64,000 nucleotides of DNA from contig NZ_JAQWGS010000011.1 of assembly GCF_029238095.1 (NCBI RefSeq), forward strand, positions 1-64,000, written 5' to 3'. Of the stretch, positions 9,154-20,135 are shown piece after piece (position 1 is the first letter of the stretch; every line of letters begins with the position of its first letter). The stretch is from Lacinutrix sp. (GTDB lineage: Bacteria > Bacteroidota > Bacteroidia > Flavobacteriales > Flavobacteriaceae). Below the pieces are notes generated by a model. The model saw only the letters and a program-made list of their open reading frames with translations, searched no databases and was not told where the DNA came from. The translations under genes were made by a program, and so were the position numbers.

Positions 9154-9159
9154 AAAATG

Positions 9160-9241
<82 letters not shown>

Positions 9242-9302: not shown

Positions 9303-10559
9303 TTACAAGCCAAATTCGGCTTTTACTTTGTCTACATAATCTAATTTTTCCCAAGTAAATAATTCAACATCTACAGTAATATCTTCTCCATTTGGTTGAG
9401 AAAAAGTTTTAGAAACCGTTTCGTTTGTTCTTCCCATGTGACCATAAGCAGCGGTTTCGCTATACATAGGGTTTCGTAATTTTAAAAGTGTTTCTATTGC
9501 AGAAGGTCTCATATCGAAAACCTTAGAAATCTTTTCAGAAATTTCACCATCTGTTAAGTTAAATGGGCAAGTACCATAAGTATCCACAAAAATACCCATA
9601 GGCTCTACAACACCAATAGCATAAGAAACTTGTACTAATATTTCATCGCAAACACCTGCTGCTACTAGGTTTTTAGCAATATGTCTTGTTGCATAAGCAG
9701 CACTTCTATCGACCTTACTAGGATCTTTTCCAGAAAAAGCACCACCACCATGCGCACCTTTACCACCATAAGTATCTACAATAATTTTACGTCCTGTTAA
9801 TCCTGTATCTCCATGAGGTCCACCAATAACAAATTTTCCGGTAGGATTTATATGGTATTTAATATCGTTATTAAATAATATTTTAATGTCTTCTGGAAGT
9901 TTTGCAATAACTCTAGGAATTAAAATATCTACAATATCTTTTCTAATTTTTGCAAGCATAACTTCGTCATTAGTATTGAAATCGTCATGCTGTGTTGATA
10001 CTACAATAGCATCGATGCGCTGTGGTACATTATCATCACTATATTCTATGGTAACTTGACTTTTAGAGTCTGGTCTTAAATAAGTAATGTCTTTATTTTC
10101 ACGACGCAATGCTGCTAATTCAATTAAAATTTTGTGAGATAAATCTAAAGCCAAAGGCATGTAGTTTTCAGTTTCATTGGTAGCATAACCAAACATCATA
10201 CCTTGGTCTCCAGCACCTTGTTCTTCTTTTGTAGCACGATCTACACCACGATTTATGTCTTCACTTTGTTCGTGAATGGCACTAAAAACACCACACGAAT
10301 TCCCATCGAACATGTATTCACTTTTAGTATAACCAATTTTGTTTATAGTGTCTCGTGCTATTTTTTGCACATCTAAGTAAGTGTTAGACTTTACTTCTCC
10401 TGCAAGCACTACTTGTCCTGTAGTTACTAGCGTTTCGCAAGCTACTTTAGAGTCGCTATCGAAAGCTAAAAAGTGGTCTATTAATGCATCACTAATTTGG
10501 TCTGCAACTTTGTCTGGATGTCCTTCAGAAACACTTTCTGATGTAAATAAATACGCCAT
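9303..10559 (-). CDS. metK: S-adenosylmethionine synthetase
   Basis: A 418-residue enzyme that makes SAM from methionine and ATP in the cytoplasm. Family motifs are present: SEGHPDK near residue 10, [12 protein letters not shown] near residue 117, and the phosphate loop [19 protein letters not shown] near residue 280. The length is that of the longer Bacteroidota/chlorobial form. The start codon (complement of 10557-10559) follows a SAM-II-type riboswitch in the leader, so the product of the enzyme is expected to repress its own synthesis. It is transcribed as a single gene; the next feature downstream is tRNA-Tyr. Confidence 0.97.
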
Positions 10560-10580: not shown

Positions 10581-10661
10581 GGATTTGACGAATGCGTCGA
10601 AGGTAGTTTACACTGCCTTTAGCATTTTTTATAGAGGTTGCAATCAGTCAAATCCGTCCTC
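10581..10661 (-). promoter_or_regulatory. SAM-II riboswitch in the metK leader
   Basis: Read on the minus strand from 10661, GAGG (P1 5') is followed by the loop GATTTGACTGATTGCAA, then CCTC (P1 3', 10637-10634), then an A-rich linker and TGCTAAAGG. This matches the SAM-II layout as I know it: P1, a loop with AUUU...UUGCA, then A-rich bases and GCUAAA, with GCA/TGC available for the pseudoknot. The aptamer spans about 10661-10612. A competing structure is also visible: GGATTTGAC inside the aptamer loop is perfectly complementary to GTCAAATCC at 10589-10581, just upstream of the start codon. Nested pairs AATGC/GCATT and AAGGcAGT/ACTaCCTT (one internal mismatch) extend this alternative stem, which may be the expression platform. 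Confidence 0.85.
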
Positions 10662-10675
10662 AAAATTAATTTTAG

Positions 10676-14904: not shown

Positions 14905-15798
14905 TTAAGCAGTTAACTCCCTAAACATACTCTCTAAACTTGCGTTTTTCTGGTTTAGTTGTAAAATTTTCAATTCATTATCATGAGCAAAATCGAACAC
15001 ATGAGAACGCATATCGTCTTTTGTAGAGAAGGTGATTTCGTAAATAAAATCATGTGTGTTTTTAACGCTTTTTGCGTTTGGTAATTTTAGTAAAAATGCA
15101 TCTTCCACTCTATAATCGAACTCTACAATAACTATTTGTTCTTGTCCTTCGCGTAGTTCAGTTAGTTTTTTATTGGCTACAATTTCGCCTTTATTAATTA
15201 TAATAACACGATCACACATCGCTTCAACTTCTTGCATGATATGAGTAGATAGAAATACGGTTTTTTCTTTACCTATGGATTTAATTAAGTCTCTAATAGC
15301 AACTAATTGATTAGGATCTAAACCAGTAGTAGGCTCGTCTAGTATTAAAACATCTGGATTATGCAATAACGCATTTGCTAAACCAACACGCTGTCTATAA
15401 CCTTTAGAAAGTTGACTTATTTTTTTGTGAGCCTCTGGAGCAAGGCCAGTAAGATTAATCACATCTTCAATTCTACTTTTATCTACTTTATAAACCTTTG
15501 CGTTAAAGTCTAAATATTCACGAACGTACTGTTCTAAATATAAAGGATTGTGCTCTGGCAAGTAGCCAACACTTTGTTGCACAAGTTTTGCATTGGTATT
15601 AATGTCGTGTCCGTTTACTGCTGCTTCACCTTTTGTTGGATTGATAAAAGTGGTTAATATCTTCATCATAGTAGATTTACCAGCACCATTTGGACCAAGA
15701 AAGCCAACAATTTCAGGTTTGTCAATTTCAAAAGACACATTATGTAGTGCTTTTTGCTCACCATAAACCTTAGTTATATTTTCAACTTTTATAGACAT
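14905..15798 (-). CDS. gldA: Gliding-motility ABC transporter ATP-binding subunit GldA
   Basis: A 297-residue ATPase. Walker A GPNGAGKST is at residues 35-43, the signature region is LSKGYRQRVGLA, and Walker B is DVLILDEPTTGLDP. The overall sequence matches GldA, the ATPase that works with the membrane proteins GldF and GldG in gliding of Flavobacteriia. The start is put at the second ATG (complement of 15796-15798), which begins MSIKVENITKVYG as in the family; an ATG six codons upstream is possible. gldF and gldG are not adjacent here. Confidence 0.88.
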   Translation of the reverse strand: MSIKVENITKVYGEQKALHNVSFEIDKPEIVGFLGPNGAGKSTMMKILTTFINPTKGEAAVNGHDINTNAKLVQQSVGYLPEHNPLYLEQYVREYLDFNAKVYKVDKSRIEDVINLTGLAPEAHKKISQLSKGYRQRVGLANALLHNPDVLILDEPTTGLDPNQLVAIRDLIKSIGKEKTVFLSTHIMQEVEAMCDRVIIINKGEIVANKKLTELREGQEQIVIVEFDYRVEDAFLLKLPNAKSVKNTHDFIYEITFSTKDDMRSHVFDFAHDNELKILQLNQKNASLESMFRELTA

Positions 15799-15944
15799 CT
15801 TATATTCTTTCTTCAAAAATAAACATTCTGTAATTTATAAAGCACATTGTTAGTAAATCTTTAAATCTTTACTTAAAACCCTAAAATTCATGCTTTAGTA
15901 TTTTTATTTGTGATTTAATTATTTACATTAGCACCATAATTACA

Positions 15945-16022
15945 ATGAAAACAATTCAAAATACATATTACAGCTGGTACTATTTCTTTTTTTGCAAAAA
16001 GAACGAGACTGCTTATATGTAA
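15945..16022 (+). CDS. Aromatic leader peptide of the pheA-aminotransferase-tyrA-aroG operon
   Basis: A 25-codon open frame (ATG 15945, TAA 16020-16022) lies in the operon leader. Residues 8-16 read YYSWYYFFF: eight aromatic residues in nine, covering Tyr, Trp and Phe. Such a run next to a terminator, upstream of the genes that make these amino acids, is the hallmark of ribosome-mediated attenuation (as in the trp and pheA leaders of enterobacteria). The stop codon is placed so that a ribosome finishing the peptide would cover the 5' half of the antiterminator described in the next entry. It is too short for ordinary gene calling. Confidence 0.88.
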   Translation: MKTIQNTYYSWYYFFFCKKNETAYM

Positions 16023-16075
16023 TTGAAATAAACATATATTTTAAAAAAGTCTCGATGTACATCGAGACTTTTTTT
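16004..16075 (+). promoter_or_regulatory. Transcription attenuator (antiterminator and terminator) of the aromatic operon
   Basis: Terminator: left arm 16043-16058 and right arm 16059-16074 form an A-run/GTCTCGAT...ATCGAGAC/T-run hairpin with a GTAC loop. Antiterminator: CGAGACT at 16004-16010 (inside the leader peptide gene) is complementary to AGTCTCG at 16048-16054 in the terminator left arm, and TATATGT (16014-16020) pairs with ACATATA (16032-16038), stacking on the same structure. A ribosome stalled on the Tyr/Trp/Phe codons (15966-15992) leaves these bases free, giving antitermination. One that reaches the stop codon masks them, giving termination. Confidence 0.85.
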
Positions 16076-16096
16076 ATATCTAAAAACAAAAATAAT

Positions 16097-16924
16097 TTGA
16101 TTAAAATAGTAGCTATACAAGGCGTAAAAGGATCGTTTCACCATATTGTGTCGCAAGACTATTTTGGTGAGCAAACTGCTGTAAACGAGTGTTTGTCTTT
16201 TGATGAAACTGTAGAAGCTTTATTGTCTGGAAAAACCGAAGCTGCAATTATGGCTTTAGAGAATTCTATTGCAGGATCTATAATACCAAATTATGCGTTA
16301 ATAGATGCTAATAATTTACACATAGTAGGTGAGCATTATCTTGACATTCAGCACAATTTAATGGCTTTGCCAAATCAAACAATTCAAGATGTAAAAGAAG
16401 TGTATTCGCATCCAATGGCATTACTGCAATGCAAAGTATTTTTTAAAAATTATCCACATATTAAGTTGGTTGAAGATAAAGATACAGCTGAAGTTGCACA
16501 ACGTATTTCTCAAGGAAAGATAAAAGGAATTGCTGCAATAGCTAGTAGTCTGGCAGCTTCAATTTTTAAGTTAGATATTCTGGCAGAAAGTATCCAAACC
16601 ATTAAACACAACGAAACCCGTTTTGCTATTGTTAGGCAAAATAATTCCGAAATTCCAAAAACTGAAATAAATAAAGCTTCTATTAAATTCGAACTCGATC
16701 ATAAACGCGGAAGTTTGGCAGCAATTTTAAATGTAATGAGTGATTGTAAGCTTAATTTAACCAAAATACAATCACTTCCTAAAATTGAAACACCATGGTT
16801 GTACGCTTTTTTTGTAGATGTGACTTTTGACAGTTATAAAGATTTTGAAAAAGTAAAAACTATAATAGAAATAATGGCTACACATTTTAAGGTTTTAGGA
16901 GAATATAAAAATGCAAAATTATAA
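16097..16924 (+). CDS. pheA: Prephenate dehydratase
   Basis: A 275-residue enzyme that converts prephenate to phenylpyruvate in phenylalanine synthesis. It has an N-terminal catalytic domain (IQGVKGSFHHIVSQDYF at the start, HPMALLQCKVF near residue 107) and a C-terminal ACT domain (FELDHKRGSLAAILNVMSD), which usually binds Phe for feedback inhibition. I chose the TTG at 16097 as start because family members begin with the residues that follow it. The in-frame ATG at 16055 lies inside the attenuator hairpin and the TTG at 15992 lies in the leader gene. The stop overlaps the next start (TAATG). Confidence 0.9.
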   Translation: MIKIVAIQGVKGSFHHIVSQDYFGEQTAVNECLSFDETVEALLSGKTEAAIMALENSIAGSIIPNYALIDANNLHIVGEHYLDIQHNLMALPNQTIQDVKEVYSHPMALLQCKVFFKNYPHIKLVEDKDTAEVAQRISQGKIKGIAAIASSLAASIFKLDILAESIQTIKHNETRFAIVRQNNSEIPKTEINKASIKFELDHKRGSLAAILNVMSDCKLNLTKIQSLPKIETPWLYAFFVDVTFDSYKDFEKVKTIIEIMATHFKVLGEYKNAKL

Positions 16925-18063
16925 TGGAAGTTGCAAACAGATTACATAGCGTAGAAGAATACTACTTTTCTAAGAAGTTAAAGGAAGTAAATAGCCTTAA
17001 ATCTCATAGCAAGCCTATTATTAATTTGGGTATTGGTAGTCCAGATTTGCAACCTCCAAGCAATGTAATTACTGCAATAGCAAATAGTTTAAAAGAGGCT
17101 AATGCTCATAAATACCAAAGCTACCAAGGTTTGCCAGAATTAAGACAAGCTATTTCTGGTTTTTATAAAACACATTTTAACGTAACTCTTAATGCGGATG
17201 GAGAAGTGTTGCCTCTTATGGGAAGTAAGGAAGGTATTATGCATATTTCAATGGCTTTTTTAAACAAAGGAGATGCAGTTTTAATTCCAAATCCAGGATA
17301 TCCAACCTATACCTCGGTTACTAAATTATTAGAAGCAAAGCCTGTTTTTTACAATTTAGATCAAAAACATAACTGGTGTCCTAATCTATTAGAACTTGAA
17401 GCTCAAGATTTAAGTAAAGTAAAAATAATGTGGATTAGCTATCCACACATGCCAACAGGAGCAAAAGCATCAAAAGAAGTGTTTAAATCATTAATTACCT
17501 TTGCAAAAAAACATGATATTTTGCTGGTAAACGATAATCCATATAGTTTTATTCTCAACAAAGAACCTTTAAGTATTTTAAGTGTTGAAGGCGCTAAAGA
17601 TGTGTGTTTAGAGCTAAACTCTTTAAGTAAAACTTTTAATATGGCTGGCTGGAGAGTTGGTATGTTGTCAGGAAATAAAGAGCTTATAAATGCAGTTTTA
17701 AAAGTAAAAAGTAATATGGATTCTGGTATGTTTTATGGCATTCAAAAAGGAGCCATTGAAGCACTAAAAGTATCGCAATCTTGGTTCGAAAATTTAAATG
17801 CTATCTATCAAGAAAGAAGACGATTAGTTTGGGAACTAGCGACAAAATTAGAGTGCACATACAATGAAAATGCAAGCGGATTGTTTGTTTGGGCAAAGTT
17901 GCCCTCCAATTTTTCTTCCGAAGTATTTATAGATAAACTATTAAAAGAATACGATATTTTCATAGCTCCAGGCACTATTTTTGGTAGTCAAGGTGAAGGT
18001 TATGTGCGTTTTTCGTTATGTGCAACAACAGAACAGATTAAAGAAGCAATTTCAAGAGTATAA
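16924..18063 (+). CDS. PLP-dependent aminotransferase class I/II (probable aromatic/prephenate aminotransferase)
   Basis: A 379-residue fold-type I aminotransferase. The PLP lysine lies in ELNSLSKTFNMAGWRVG (K about residue 238), the substrate-proximal NDNPYSF segment is near residue 201, and the C-terminal RFSLCATTEQIKEA arm binds the carboxylate. Its position between prephenate dehydratase and prephenate dehydrogenase points to transamination of phenylpyruvate/hydroxyphenylpyruvate or prephenate. The family also contains LL-diaminopimelate and aspartate aminotransferases, so the exact substrate is inferred from context. It overlaps the pheA stop codon by one base, implying translational coupling. 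Confidence 0.88.
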   Translation: MEVANRLHSVEEYYFSKKLKEVNSLKSHSKPIINLGIGSPDLQPPSNVITAIANSLKEANAHKYQSYQGLPELRQAISGFYKTHFNVTLNADGEVLPLMGSKEGIMHISMAFLNKGDAVLIPNPGYPTYTSVTKLLEAKPVFYNLDQKHNWCPNLLELEAQDLSKVKIMWISYPHMPTGAKASKEVFKSLITFAKKHDILLVNDNPYSFILNKEPLSILSVEGAKDVCLELNSLSKTFNMAGWRVGMLSGNKELINAVLKVKSNMDSGMFYGIQKGAIEALKVSQSWFENLNAIYQERRRLVWELATKLECTYNENASGLFVWAKLPSNFSSEVFIDKLLKEYDIFIAPGTIFGSQGEGYVRFSLCATTEQIKEAISRV

Positions 18064-18147: not shown

Positions 18148-19005
18148 ATGGGAATAAATAACATATACATAATTGGTGTAGGATTAATAGGAGGGAGTTT
18201 GGCTTTAGATATAAAGAAAAAACGACCAGAAGCTACTATTTATGGTATAGATAATAACGCACAGCATTTGTCGGAAGCTCTGGAGTTACAAGTTATCGAC
18301 GCAGAAGCTACGTTAGAGGATTTGGATAAAGCAGATTTGATTGTATTATCTATTCCTGTAGATGCTGCTGTTGCTTTATTACCAAAAGTATTAGATAAAG
18401 TGTCAGACTTTGGTTTAGTTGTAGATGTCGGTTCTACTAAATTAGATATTTGTAAGGTGGTAGAACATCATCCAAAGCGAAGAAACTTTTTAGCCATGCA
18501 TCCTATTGCAGGAACAGAATTTTCTGGTCCCAAAGCAGCAATTCTAGATTTGTTTCAGCATAAAACAAACATTGTTTGCGAAGTTGAAAAAACTGCTTTC
18601 AAACTTCAAGAGAAAGCATTAAATCTGTTTACAGAAATAGGCATGAGAATGCGTTATATGAATCCAGAATCTCACGATAAACACATTGCTTACGTATCGC
18701 ATTTATCGCACATAAGTGCTTTTATGCTAGGAAAAACAGTAATAGAAAAGGAAAAAAACGAACGTGATATTTTCGATATGGCAGGTTCTGGTTTTGAGAG
18801 TACAGTACGTTTGGCAAAAAGTTCTCCAGCCATGTGGACACCAATTTTTAAACAAAATAAAGATAACGTGGTTGAAACTTTAGAAGATTACATTACCAAT
18901 CTTACAAAGTTTAAAAACATGATGCAAAATGATGATTTCGAAGGTGTTTTTAATGAAATGAAAGATACCAATTACATCAAACAGATATTAAACGGAATAA
19001 AATAA
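18148..19005 (+). CDS. tyrA: Prephenate dehydrogenase
   Basis: A 285-residue NAD(P)-dependent enzyme converting prephenate to 4-hydroxyphenylpyruvate for tyrosine. The nucleotide-binding GVGLIGGSLALDI is at residues 10-22 with the acidic residue of GIDNN following at the end of strand 2. The conserved HPIAGTEFSGP is near residue 119 and the catalytic-region His in YVSHLSHISAF near residue 185. It has no fused chorismate mutase or ACT domain; chorismate mutase is instead fused to the DAHP synthase encoded next. It follows the aminotransferase gene after 84 bases holding a degenerate hairpin repeat. Confidence 0.93.
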   Translation: MGINNIYIIGVGLIGGSLALDIKKKRPEATIYGIDNNAQHLSEALELQVIDAEATLEDLDKADLIVLSIPVDAAVALLPKVLDKVSDFGLVVDVGSTKLDICKVVEHHPKRRNFLAMHPIAGTEFSGPKAAILDLFQHKTNIVCEVEKTAFKLQEKALNLFTEIGMRMRYMNPESHDKHIAYVSHLSHISAFMLGKTVIEKEKNERDIFDMAGSGFESTVRLAKSSPAMWTPIFKQNKDNVVETLEDYITNLTKFKNMMQNDDFEGVFNEMKDTNYIKQILNGIK

Positions 19006-19052: not shown

Positions 19053-20135
19053 ATGGAAAATAAAAAAGAAATGAGGAACTGGTTGGATGCCATGAATTTA
19101 GAACATCCATTAGTAATTGCTGGACCATGTAGCGCAGAGACAGAAGCGCAAGTTTTAAAAATAGCGCACGAGCTTAAAGATACTGACGTAAGTTATTTTA
19201 GAGCAGGTATTTGGAAACCACGTACACGTCCAGGAATGTTTGAAGGCGTTGGTGCATTAGGTTTAAATTGGCTTAAAAAGGTAAAAGCGGAAACAGGAAT
19301 GAAAACCTGTACAGAAGTAGCAAACGCTGCACACGTAAAGTTAGCGATAGAAAATGATGTCGATTTACTTTGGATTGGTGCACGCTCTACCGTAAGTCCA
19401 TTTATTATGCAAGAATTGGCAGATGCTTTAGCTGGAACCGATAAAATAGTGTTGGTAAAAAATCCATTAAATCCAGATTTAGCCTTATGGTTAGGTGGAA
19501 TAGAACGATTATATACTGCTGGTATTAAAAACCTAGGAGCGATACACAGAGGGTTTTCAACATACGAAAAAACCAAATATAGAAACATTCCAGAATGGCA
19601 AATTGCAATCGAGTTTCAAAACAGATTTCCAGACTTACCTTTAATTAACGATCCATCGCATATTACAGGAAAGCGTGATATGGTTTTTGATGTGTCTCAA
19701 ACAGCATTAGACCTTAATTTCGATGGTTTAATGGTAGAAACACACACAGACCCAGATAATGCATGGAGTGATGCTGCACAACAAGTAACACCAACAGCAC
19801 TAATTAAAATGATGCAAGATTTAAAAATCCGAAAAGTTAGTGATCCTGAGGAAGCTTTCAATAGTGAGTTAACTAACCTAAGAGCTCAAATAGATGTTGT
19901 AGATAATCAACTTATCGATTTAATGGGTAAGCGTATGCAAGTAGCAGATGGTATTGGTAAACTTAAGAAAGAGAAAAATGTTGCTGTTTTACAAAGTAAG
20001 CGTTGGAACGAAATCTTAGGAAAAATGGTGCTTCAAGGTGATGAAAAAGGTTTAAGCGAAGAGTTTATTTTAAAACTCTTTAAAGCTATTCACCAAGAAT
20101 CTATTAATCATCAAGAGAAAATTCTTAAAGGATAG
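19053..20135 (+). CDS. Bifunctional DAHP synthase / chorismate mutase (type II)
   Basis: A 360-residue fusion. Residues 1-260 are a class I-beta (KDOPS-like) 3-deoxy-7-phosphoheptulonate synthase, with the motif VIAGPCSAETE at residues 21-31 and the metal/PEP segments PRTRPGMFEG and NDPSHITGKRD. Residues 270-360 are an AroQ-type chorismate mutase (LRAQIDVVDNQLIDLMGKRMQ). The first reaction opens the shikimate pathway; the second commits chorismate to Phe/Tyr. In such fusions the mutase domain commonly mediates prephenate feedback. It is the last gene of the operon under the aromatic attenuator, so both pathway entry and branch enzymes share one control. Confidence 0.95.
   Translation: MENKKEMRNWLDAMNLEHPLVIAGPCSAETEAQVLKIAHELKDTDVSYFRAGIWKPRTRPGMFEGVGALGLNWLKKVKAETGMKTCTEVANAAHVKLAIENDVDLLWIGARSTVSPFIMQELADALAGTDKIVLVKNPLNPDLALWLGGIERLYTAGIKNLGAIHRGFSTYEKTKYRNIPEWQIAIEFQNRFPDLPLINDPSHITGKRDMVFDVSQTALDLNFDGLMVETHTDPDNAWSDAAQQVTPTALIKMMQDLKIRKVSDPEEAFNSELTNLRAQIDVVDNQLIDLMGKRMQVADGIGKLKKEKNVAVLQSKRWNEILGKMVLQGDEKGLSEEFILKLFKAIHQESINHQEKILKG

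Follow-up and report, generated by a model that had tools for sequence, protein, structure and literature searches.

A predicted leader-peptide attenuator with mixed aromatic codons upstream of the pheA operon in Flavobacteriaceae

Introduction

The classical attenuators of the phe, trp and his operons in Proteobacteria combine a leader peptide rich in codons for the product amino acid with protector, antiterminator and terminator helices, and have an intrinsic terminator placed before the first gene. Closer in phylogeny, a 2021 transcriptome of Flavobacterium psychrophilum revealed a structured 5' element at pheA that also occurs in other genera of the Flavobacteriaceae and lacks an Rfam hit, and it offered clues to leader-peptide attenuation at flavobacterial amino-acid operons (PMC9723704). 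Bacteroid-trp has been listed together with a pheA motif, the latter for Actinobacteria, judged likely cis-regulatory (PMC2864571). In Acholeplasma, uORFC-13-1 is a proposed upstream ORF before aroF that contains at least one Phe codon and is followed by a terminator before the DAHP synthase gene (PMC8632094), and long 5' UTRs of Bacteroides thetaiotaomicron carry short ORFs reminiscent of leader peptides (PMC7366714).

Here we analyze a 64,000-nucleotide stretch of Lacinutrix sp. DNA (contig NZ_JAQWGS010000011.1, hereafter the window) and its relatives. The original prediction, made from the letters of the window, proposed that one attenuator senses Phe, Tyr and Trp together and was aware of no report of such a leader in Bacteroidota. 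This last point needs narrowing, as the F. psychrophilum pheA element and Bacteroid-trp (RF01692) were already known; what survives is that among the literature matches listed, a set with subscription literature mostly outside its scope, none describes a Bacteroidota leader that mixes Phe, Tyr and Trp codons, and a 2010 comparative attenuation study (Mol Biol 44:128) may cover the subject.

Results

Layout of the leader region and operon

The leader peptide ORF, MKTIQNTYYSWYYFFFCKKNETAYM, occupies 15945-16022 on the plus strand, from ATG (15945-15947) to TAA (16020-16022) through 25 sense codons. Phe, Tyr and Trp codons are all present and the ORF is rich in codons for the amino acids that the operon produces; the predicted sensed aromatic run is YYSWYYFFF (15966-15992, plus strand). 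Within the ORF lies segment A, CGAGACT (16004-16010, plus strand), and beyond it an intrinsic terminator hairpin with a T run, AAAAAAGTCTCGATGTACATCGAGACTTTTTTT (16043-16075, plus strand), evident in the sequence, its predicted fold and an inverted repeat with arms at 16035-16058 and 16059-16082 that are 88% complementary. The hairpin contains segment B, AGTCTCG (16048-16054, plus strand), located by sequence and fold, and its 3' arm is a second copy of CGAGACT (direct repeat D1) with seven T at the end. The ORF, the aromatic run, the hairpin with its T run and the four motif positions all lie where the original prediction had placed them, to the base.

Four plus-strand genes follow: pheA, encoding prephenate dehydratase (PDT; 16097-16924; PF00800, E 1.1e-53), a class I/II aminotransferase (16924-18063; PF00155, E 9.5e-61), tyrA, encoding prephenate dehydrogenase (18148-19005; PF02153 and PF20463, with NF006307 above cut-off), and a DAHP synthase I with chorismate mutase II (19053-20135; PF00793 and PF01817). 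Pfam therefore agrees with the enzymes and the common direction given at the outset, and it places no Trp-specific enzyme among the four genes. In 70/70 genomes the DAHP synthase/chorismate mutase gene shares contig and strand with PheA and lies 2.0-2.4 kb downstream of it, the count having been entered for 70 of the 130 PheA-bearing genomes. The sole in-frame ATG near the pheA start falls in the terminator loop (16055-16057), and because TTG stands at the start position in 22 of the 28 loci without an ATG within five codons (window included), pheA likely starts at TTG 16097. This apparent TTG start (16097-16099 in the window) is seen in 21 other loci, and an ATG lies 2-4 codons before the anchor in 96/126.

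Upstream of the leader is a divergent ORF for an ABC transporter ATPase (14905-15816, minus strand; ORF and Pfam). Motif enrichment upstream of the leader ATG yielded a promoter-like motif, TTACATTAG, as a candidate -7 region at 15923-15931 (plus strand). TTA[CA]NTTAG is present in the 45 nt preceding the leader ATG at 68/126 loci against a mean of 1.15 in mononucleotide shuffles, and TTANNTT[TA]G upstream of the leader in 80/126 against 3.8. The Bacteroidetes promoter consensus TTTG-N17-21-TANNTTTG (PMC9723704) was matched in 11/126 loci against 0.7 in shuffles, and a looser form of it in 24/126 against 10.75. Promoters of the sigma-70 type were rejected as candidates, with 2 sites where 2.6 were expected.

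Two other features of the window were recorded in passing. A tRNA-Tyr gene (anticodon GTA; 9159-9241, minus strand) is separated from the Tyr-rich leader by about 6.7 kb, a closeness that is probably coincidence. A SAM-II riboswitch (RF01726, 61.7 bits; 10609-10667, minus strand) lies immediately upstream of the ORF at 9303-10559 (minus strand), which from its sequence we take to be metK.

Conservation of the leader ORF

PheA was located in 130 of 149 genomes of the same family, the Flavobacteriaceae (129 genera, window included), and all 130 upstream stretches were read. Scoring a leader as an ORF with at least six aromatic residues in ten consecutive positions, we found one upstream of PheA at 126/130 loci, and a hairpin followed it in 126/126; the alignment across the family that had been proposed as a check thus bears out both elements. 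Three informative loci (L103, L108 and L120) have no leader by this measure, and the fourth leaderless locus, L003, offers just 140 nt of upstream sequence. Within 300 nt of PheA a leader was present at 124/129 loci, compared with 4/129 on the reverse strand and 31/645 dinucleotide shuffles; control ORFs could not run into the gene as real ones could, which is immaterial to this comparison since 57 nt or more separate the end of the leader from the PheA anchor in 126/126 cases. Two alignments, A1 (52 loci) and A2 (28 loci), were assembled by peptide type and length and together hold 80 of the 126 leaders. Inside their ORF part 82/82 gaps are multiples of three (length 3 or 6), as expected if the leader ORF is translated.

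Pairing of segments A and B

Segment A is the predicted 5' arm of an antiterminator in which it pairs with B, an assignment that draws on a partner-swap test and on registered pairs. Across 126 loci, A bound its own B at a mean of -10.80 kcal/mol, whereas permuted B gave -8.15 +/- 0.18 (best of 2000 permutations, -9.04) and a shuffled leader segment -4.98. When loci with different B were compared pairwise (7618 pairs), own partners were better in 6037, worse in 649 and tied in 932. Registered A:B cells were standard pairs in 716/750 cases versus 662 +/- 3.4 in 500 permutations (maximum 672), these counts covering 125 of the 126 loci with L076 dropped. The fourth A:B column is A-U in 70 loci and G-C in 51, and the terminator's own pair changes in step. 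The antiterminator is thus exclusive with the terminator and kept through compensatory change, as counted by locus among relatives that are not independent.

The position of A relative to the codons is also constrained: A starts 7-13 nt past the aromatic cluster in 121/126 loci, and the end of the stop codon falls anywhere between 12 nt ahead of and 18 nt beyond the end of A (126 loci). Given the size of a ribosome footprint, this spacing would leave A free when a ribosome stalls in the aromatic run and covered when one sits at the stop codon. By this geometry, the aromatic cluster is spaced from A as a stalled ribosome would require, and the stop codon is near enough for A to be covered.

The original prediction had included a second antiterminator stem, TATATGT (16014-16020) with ACATATA (16032-16038, plus strand). 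It forms in the window's own fold, where it adds stability, and it is a local feature: as a conserved helix it was rejected, with only 45/83 loci beating their own shuffles, which is no signal. Of the two proposed stems, the one that the swap test and covariation uphold is CGAGACT:AGTCTCG.

A predicted protector helix and other leader folds

Folding of 15945-16078 gave z = -6.72, and in the fold predicted for the window, bases from the leader's 5' part pair with its last codons as well as with the A region. The corresponding protector helix, similar to a 1:2 helix, has its 5' arm at 15954-15968 (plus strand; inverted repeat I3 and MFE fold) and its 3' arm at 16015-16029 (plus strand), spanning the last codons of the leader and its stop, the latter arm drawn from the inverted repeat, the fold and a comparison of 52 loci. 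In these 52 close-group loci, the TATGTATAA stretch at the position of ACATATA shows good pairing to the 5' part of the leader. The helix between alignment columns 18-26 and 76-84 is 91.7% paired over the 52 loci, with 4/9 pairs changed on both sides; sliding the structure by -1 column also gives 4 pairs changed on both sides, but only 23.7% of cells paired. Taken together, the protector and A:B structure scores higher in paired cells and in covariation than any of the 500 shuffles or slid versions, while 5/500 shuffles reach the count of both-side changes and 49/500 the pair-type count; these shuffles do not keep relatedness. Double changes in the close group are confined to the protector helix, with none in A:B. 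The pair counts support the protector helix, short of proof.

In simulated ribosome-free transcripts cut after B, segment A pairs upstream with a probability above 0.5 in 29/126 loci, compared with 2-6/126 when the 5' part is shuffled, and A:B exceeds 0.5 in 83/126. Because of this last count, the default of an untranslated leader may be "on" in many relatives. RNAalifold recovered the terminator in both A1 and A2, and in A1 only a hairpin in which the Phe codons pair with the Lys/Asn codons that come after them (TTCTTTTT/AAAAAGAA; 15984-16003, plus strand, in the window, also inverted repeat I6). Double changes affected 1/20 pairs in A1 and 5/10 in A2, with one structure per run. Comparison across relatives establishes the ORF, the terminator, the covarying A:B pairing, the spacing and the operon; the protector helix appears to be a real signal, held less firmly than the ORF, the terminator and A:B.

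Occurrence outside the family

We collected 55 loci outside the Flavobacteriaceae, comprising 36 of 38 class-level and 19 of 41 order-level matches (G169, in both lists, is not included). The threshold used for the family gave a leader with a hairpin at 30 of them, a leader-like ORF without a hairpin at 1 and no leader at 24. Own A:B pairing in the 30 averaged -11.26 kcal/mol versus -8.30 +/- 0.43 for permuted partners (best of 5000, -9.98), and two same-family loci (L167 and L187) were dropped from this test. A:B pairing reaches -6 kcal/mol or better in 25/30 and is weak or absent in 5, and the arm sequences can be quite different, as in L181 and L173. Terminator picks look poor or wrong in L145, L157, L161, L175 and L177, which were retained in the counts. 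Four sub-threshold loci (L135, L168, L169 and L171) resemble shorter versions of the leader, and in five loci from one family of the same order (f2; L182-L186) PheA is divergent (30-32% identity) and the six-in-ten measure picks up no aromatic leader. As judged by these comparisons, the predicted attenuator is widely kept in the family and extends to further families of the class.

Amino acids that the leader may sense

Phe and Tyr are clear as codon content, with both residues in 126/126 leaders, partly by construction since ORFs were picked by aromatic content; this applies less to Trp. A Trp codon occurs in 86 of the 126 family leaders and in 5 of the 30 outside the family, so that codons for all three amino acids are not conserved throughout. 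Two readings have to be weighed here. The first, which we give about an even chance, is that the attenuator senses Phe and Tyr only, the Trp codon being present through protector pairing of UGG with A or by chance. It fits the absence of Trp from 40/126 family and 25/30 distant leaders, and the operon encodes no Trp-specific enzyme while trpE has a Trp leader of its own. It fits, too, the predicted mean pairing probability with segment A, which is 0.375 for Trp codons compared with 0.167 for Phe and 0.133 for Tyr, and exceeds 0.5 for 38/87 Trp codons; the Trp codon may thus be partly structural. Against it, the 87 Trp codons exceed the 26.3 +/- 5.7 that mononucleotide shuffles predict, a stall at Trp would leave A equally free, and the DAHP synthase that accompanies the operon (70/70 genomes) serves Trp synthesis too.

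The second reading, which we put forward tentatively and with some doubt, is that one leader integrates Phe, Tyr and Trp supply for an operon that includes the common first enzyme, and that the element is ancestral to the class, its peptide and arms having drifted around a fixed layout of aromatic run, about 10 nt, A and terminator. If true, such drift within a fixed layout would explain the absence of the element from Rfam. As Trp is over-represented yet dispensable, and its codons are more often paired with A than those for Phe or Tyr, we leave three-way sensing unproven: in the three-amino-acid proposal the Phe and Tyr parts stand as codon content, and conservation does not support the Trp part.

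The terminator and alternative explanations for the element

A strong hairpin with a T-rich tail (score at least 20) is present at 126/126 leader loci and in 14/378 shuffles; a looser search found some hairpin in 326/378 shuffles, making the contrast in scores the only one that counts. An intrinsic terminator is accordingly present between leader and pheA, although a stock terminator scan of 15800-16130 found no site. We think that the scan missed it because the stem pairs through A and T runs and absorbs the T run. Two loci, L024 (G013) and L077 (G080), have 529 and 349 nt between the end of the terminator and the PheA anchor; these gaps contain no forward frame of at least 50 residues after Met and represent an unexplained insertion or second element.

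Could the hairpin be a plain terminator or processing site downstream of an untranslated ORF, with regulation exerted elsewhere, at the promoter or by a protein? We consider this very improbable. The negative stock scan favors this alternative, but the gene upstream is divergent, so the terminator would have no plus-strand upstream gene to end. Furthermore, ORF, spacing and A:B pairing are kept together across genera and families, and all the alignment gaps within the ORF hold the frame.

A metabolite-binding riboswitch or T-box in place of a translated leader would suit a biosynthetic operon with a structured 5' region, but is more improbable still: in this region every Rfam family stays below its gathering score, the 17 sub-threshold rows for 15800-16250 are mostly small RNAs and include no T-box, their one riboswitch row is SAM-II on the minus strand (15.0 bits against a gathering score of 44), Thr_leader (20.6 of 55 bits, E 0.16) is itself a peptide leader, and A1 and A2 display no fixed aptamer-like core while the ORF keeps its frame. 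The lowest sub-threshold E-value, 0.00016, belongs to rli42 on the minus strand (28.8 of 80 bits), a row that covers the hairpin too.

Discussion

The comparisons of ORF, terminator and A:B pairing support the architecture of ribosome-mediated attenuation that had been proposed for this locus, and we hold with high confidence that the element controls the Phe/Tyr (and DAHP synthase) operon by ribosome-mediated transcription attenuation. In the mechanism that we propose, RNA polymerase would start shortly upstream of the leader ORF with a ribosome following. A shortage of charged tRNA-Phe or tRNA-Tyr would stall the ribosome in the aromatic run, leaving A, just past it, to pair with B; the terminator would not form and the operon would be transcribed. 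With enough aromatic amino acids, the ribosome would reach the stop codon and cover A, allowing B to pair with its own 3' arm, and transcription would end before pheA. Without a ribosome, the 5' part of the leader could pair with the A region in the protector helix, favoring termination. The start site, the stalling, the termination, the response to amino acids and the co-transcriptional timing of these events are what we infer from the arrangement of the elements.

This attenuator would extend leader-peptide attenuation of aromatic amino-acid synthesis to much of one Bacteroidota family and, beyond it, to further families of the class. Such a mechanism implies that transcription and translation are closely coupled, and in flavobacteria, which are described as being without Shine-Dalgarno sequences (PMC9723704), the pheA element could make a handy reporter of this coupling. 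The coordinates and helices given here are directly testable, and the element could join Rfam beside Bacteroid-trp.

Other leaders are present in the same genome and favor the attenuator reading, as does the F. psychrophilum transcriptome. A trpE-like gene is preceded by a Trp leader, MNTNLNSTWWWTSRKTIRE, that has a hairpin and a T run (L190, contig C7), and a His-rich leader, MNFIQIHHHYHTCTRAKR, with a terminator-like hairpin lies upstream of hisG (L188, contig C26, minus strand, at about 1131-1270 of the reverse complement). The 3' part of the hisG leader pairs with a hairpin arm at -7.6 kcal/mol, and this leader had no Rfam match at gathering score. At trpE the A:B duplex is weak (-2.3 kcal/mol), and we therefore do not claim a layout shared with the pheA element.

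Among described systems, Bacteroid-trp (RF01692) comes from the same phylum and matches the trpE leader of this genome (L190 751-869, 60.6 bits); its gathering score was not reached in the window, L002 or L006, and it carries a Trp run, unlike the pheA leader with its run of Phe and Tyr. The pheA motif of PMC2864571 is likewise named for pheA but listed for Actinobacteria, and uORFC-13-1 shares the proposed Phe-codon ORF and terminator but differs in phylum and target gene. The F. psychrophilum element concerns the same gene and family as ours; the excerpted text of PMC9723704 gives no leader sequence, codon make-up or helices for pheA, unlike the present description. The leaders of the Proteobacteria belong to a different phylum, and no Rfam leader family reaches gathering score for the pheA element. 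Unlike them, it also mixes Phe, Tyr and often Trp codons, and its antiterminator arm is a copy of the 3' arm of the terminator (D1) set inside the last codons of the leader. In its overall plan it is nonetheless like the phe, trp and his leaders of Proteobacteria, with a codon-rich leader, alternative protector, antiterminator and terminator helices, and a terminator before the first structural gene.
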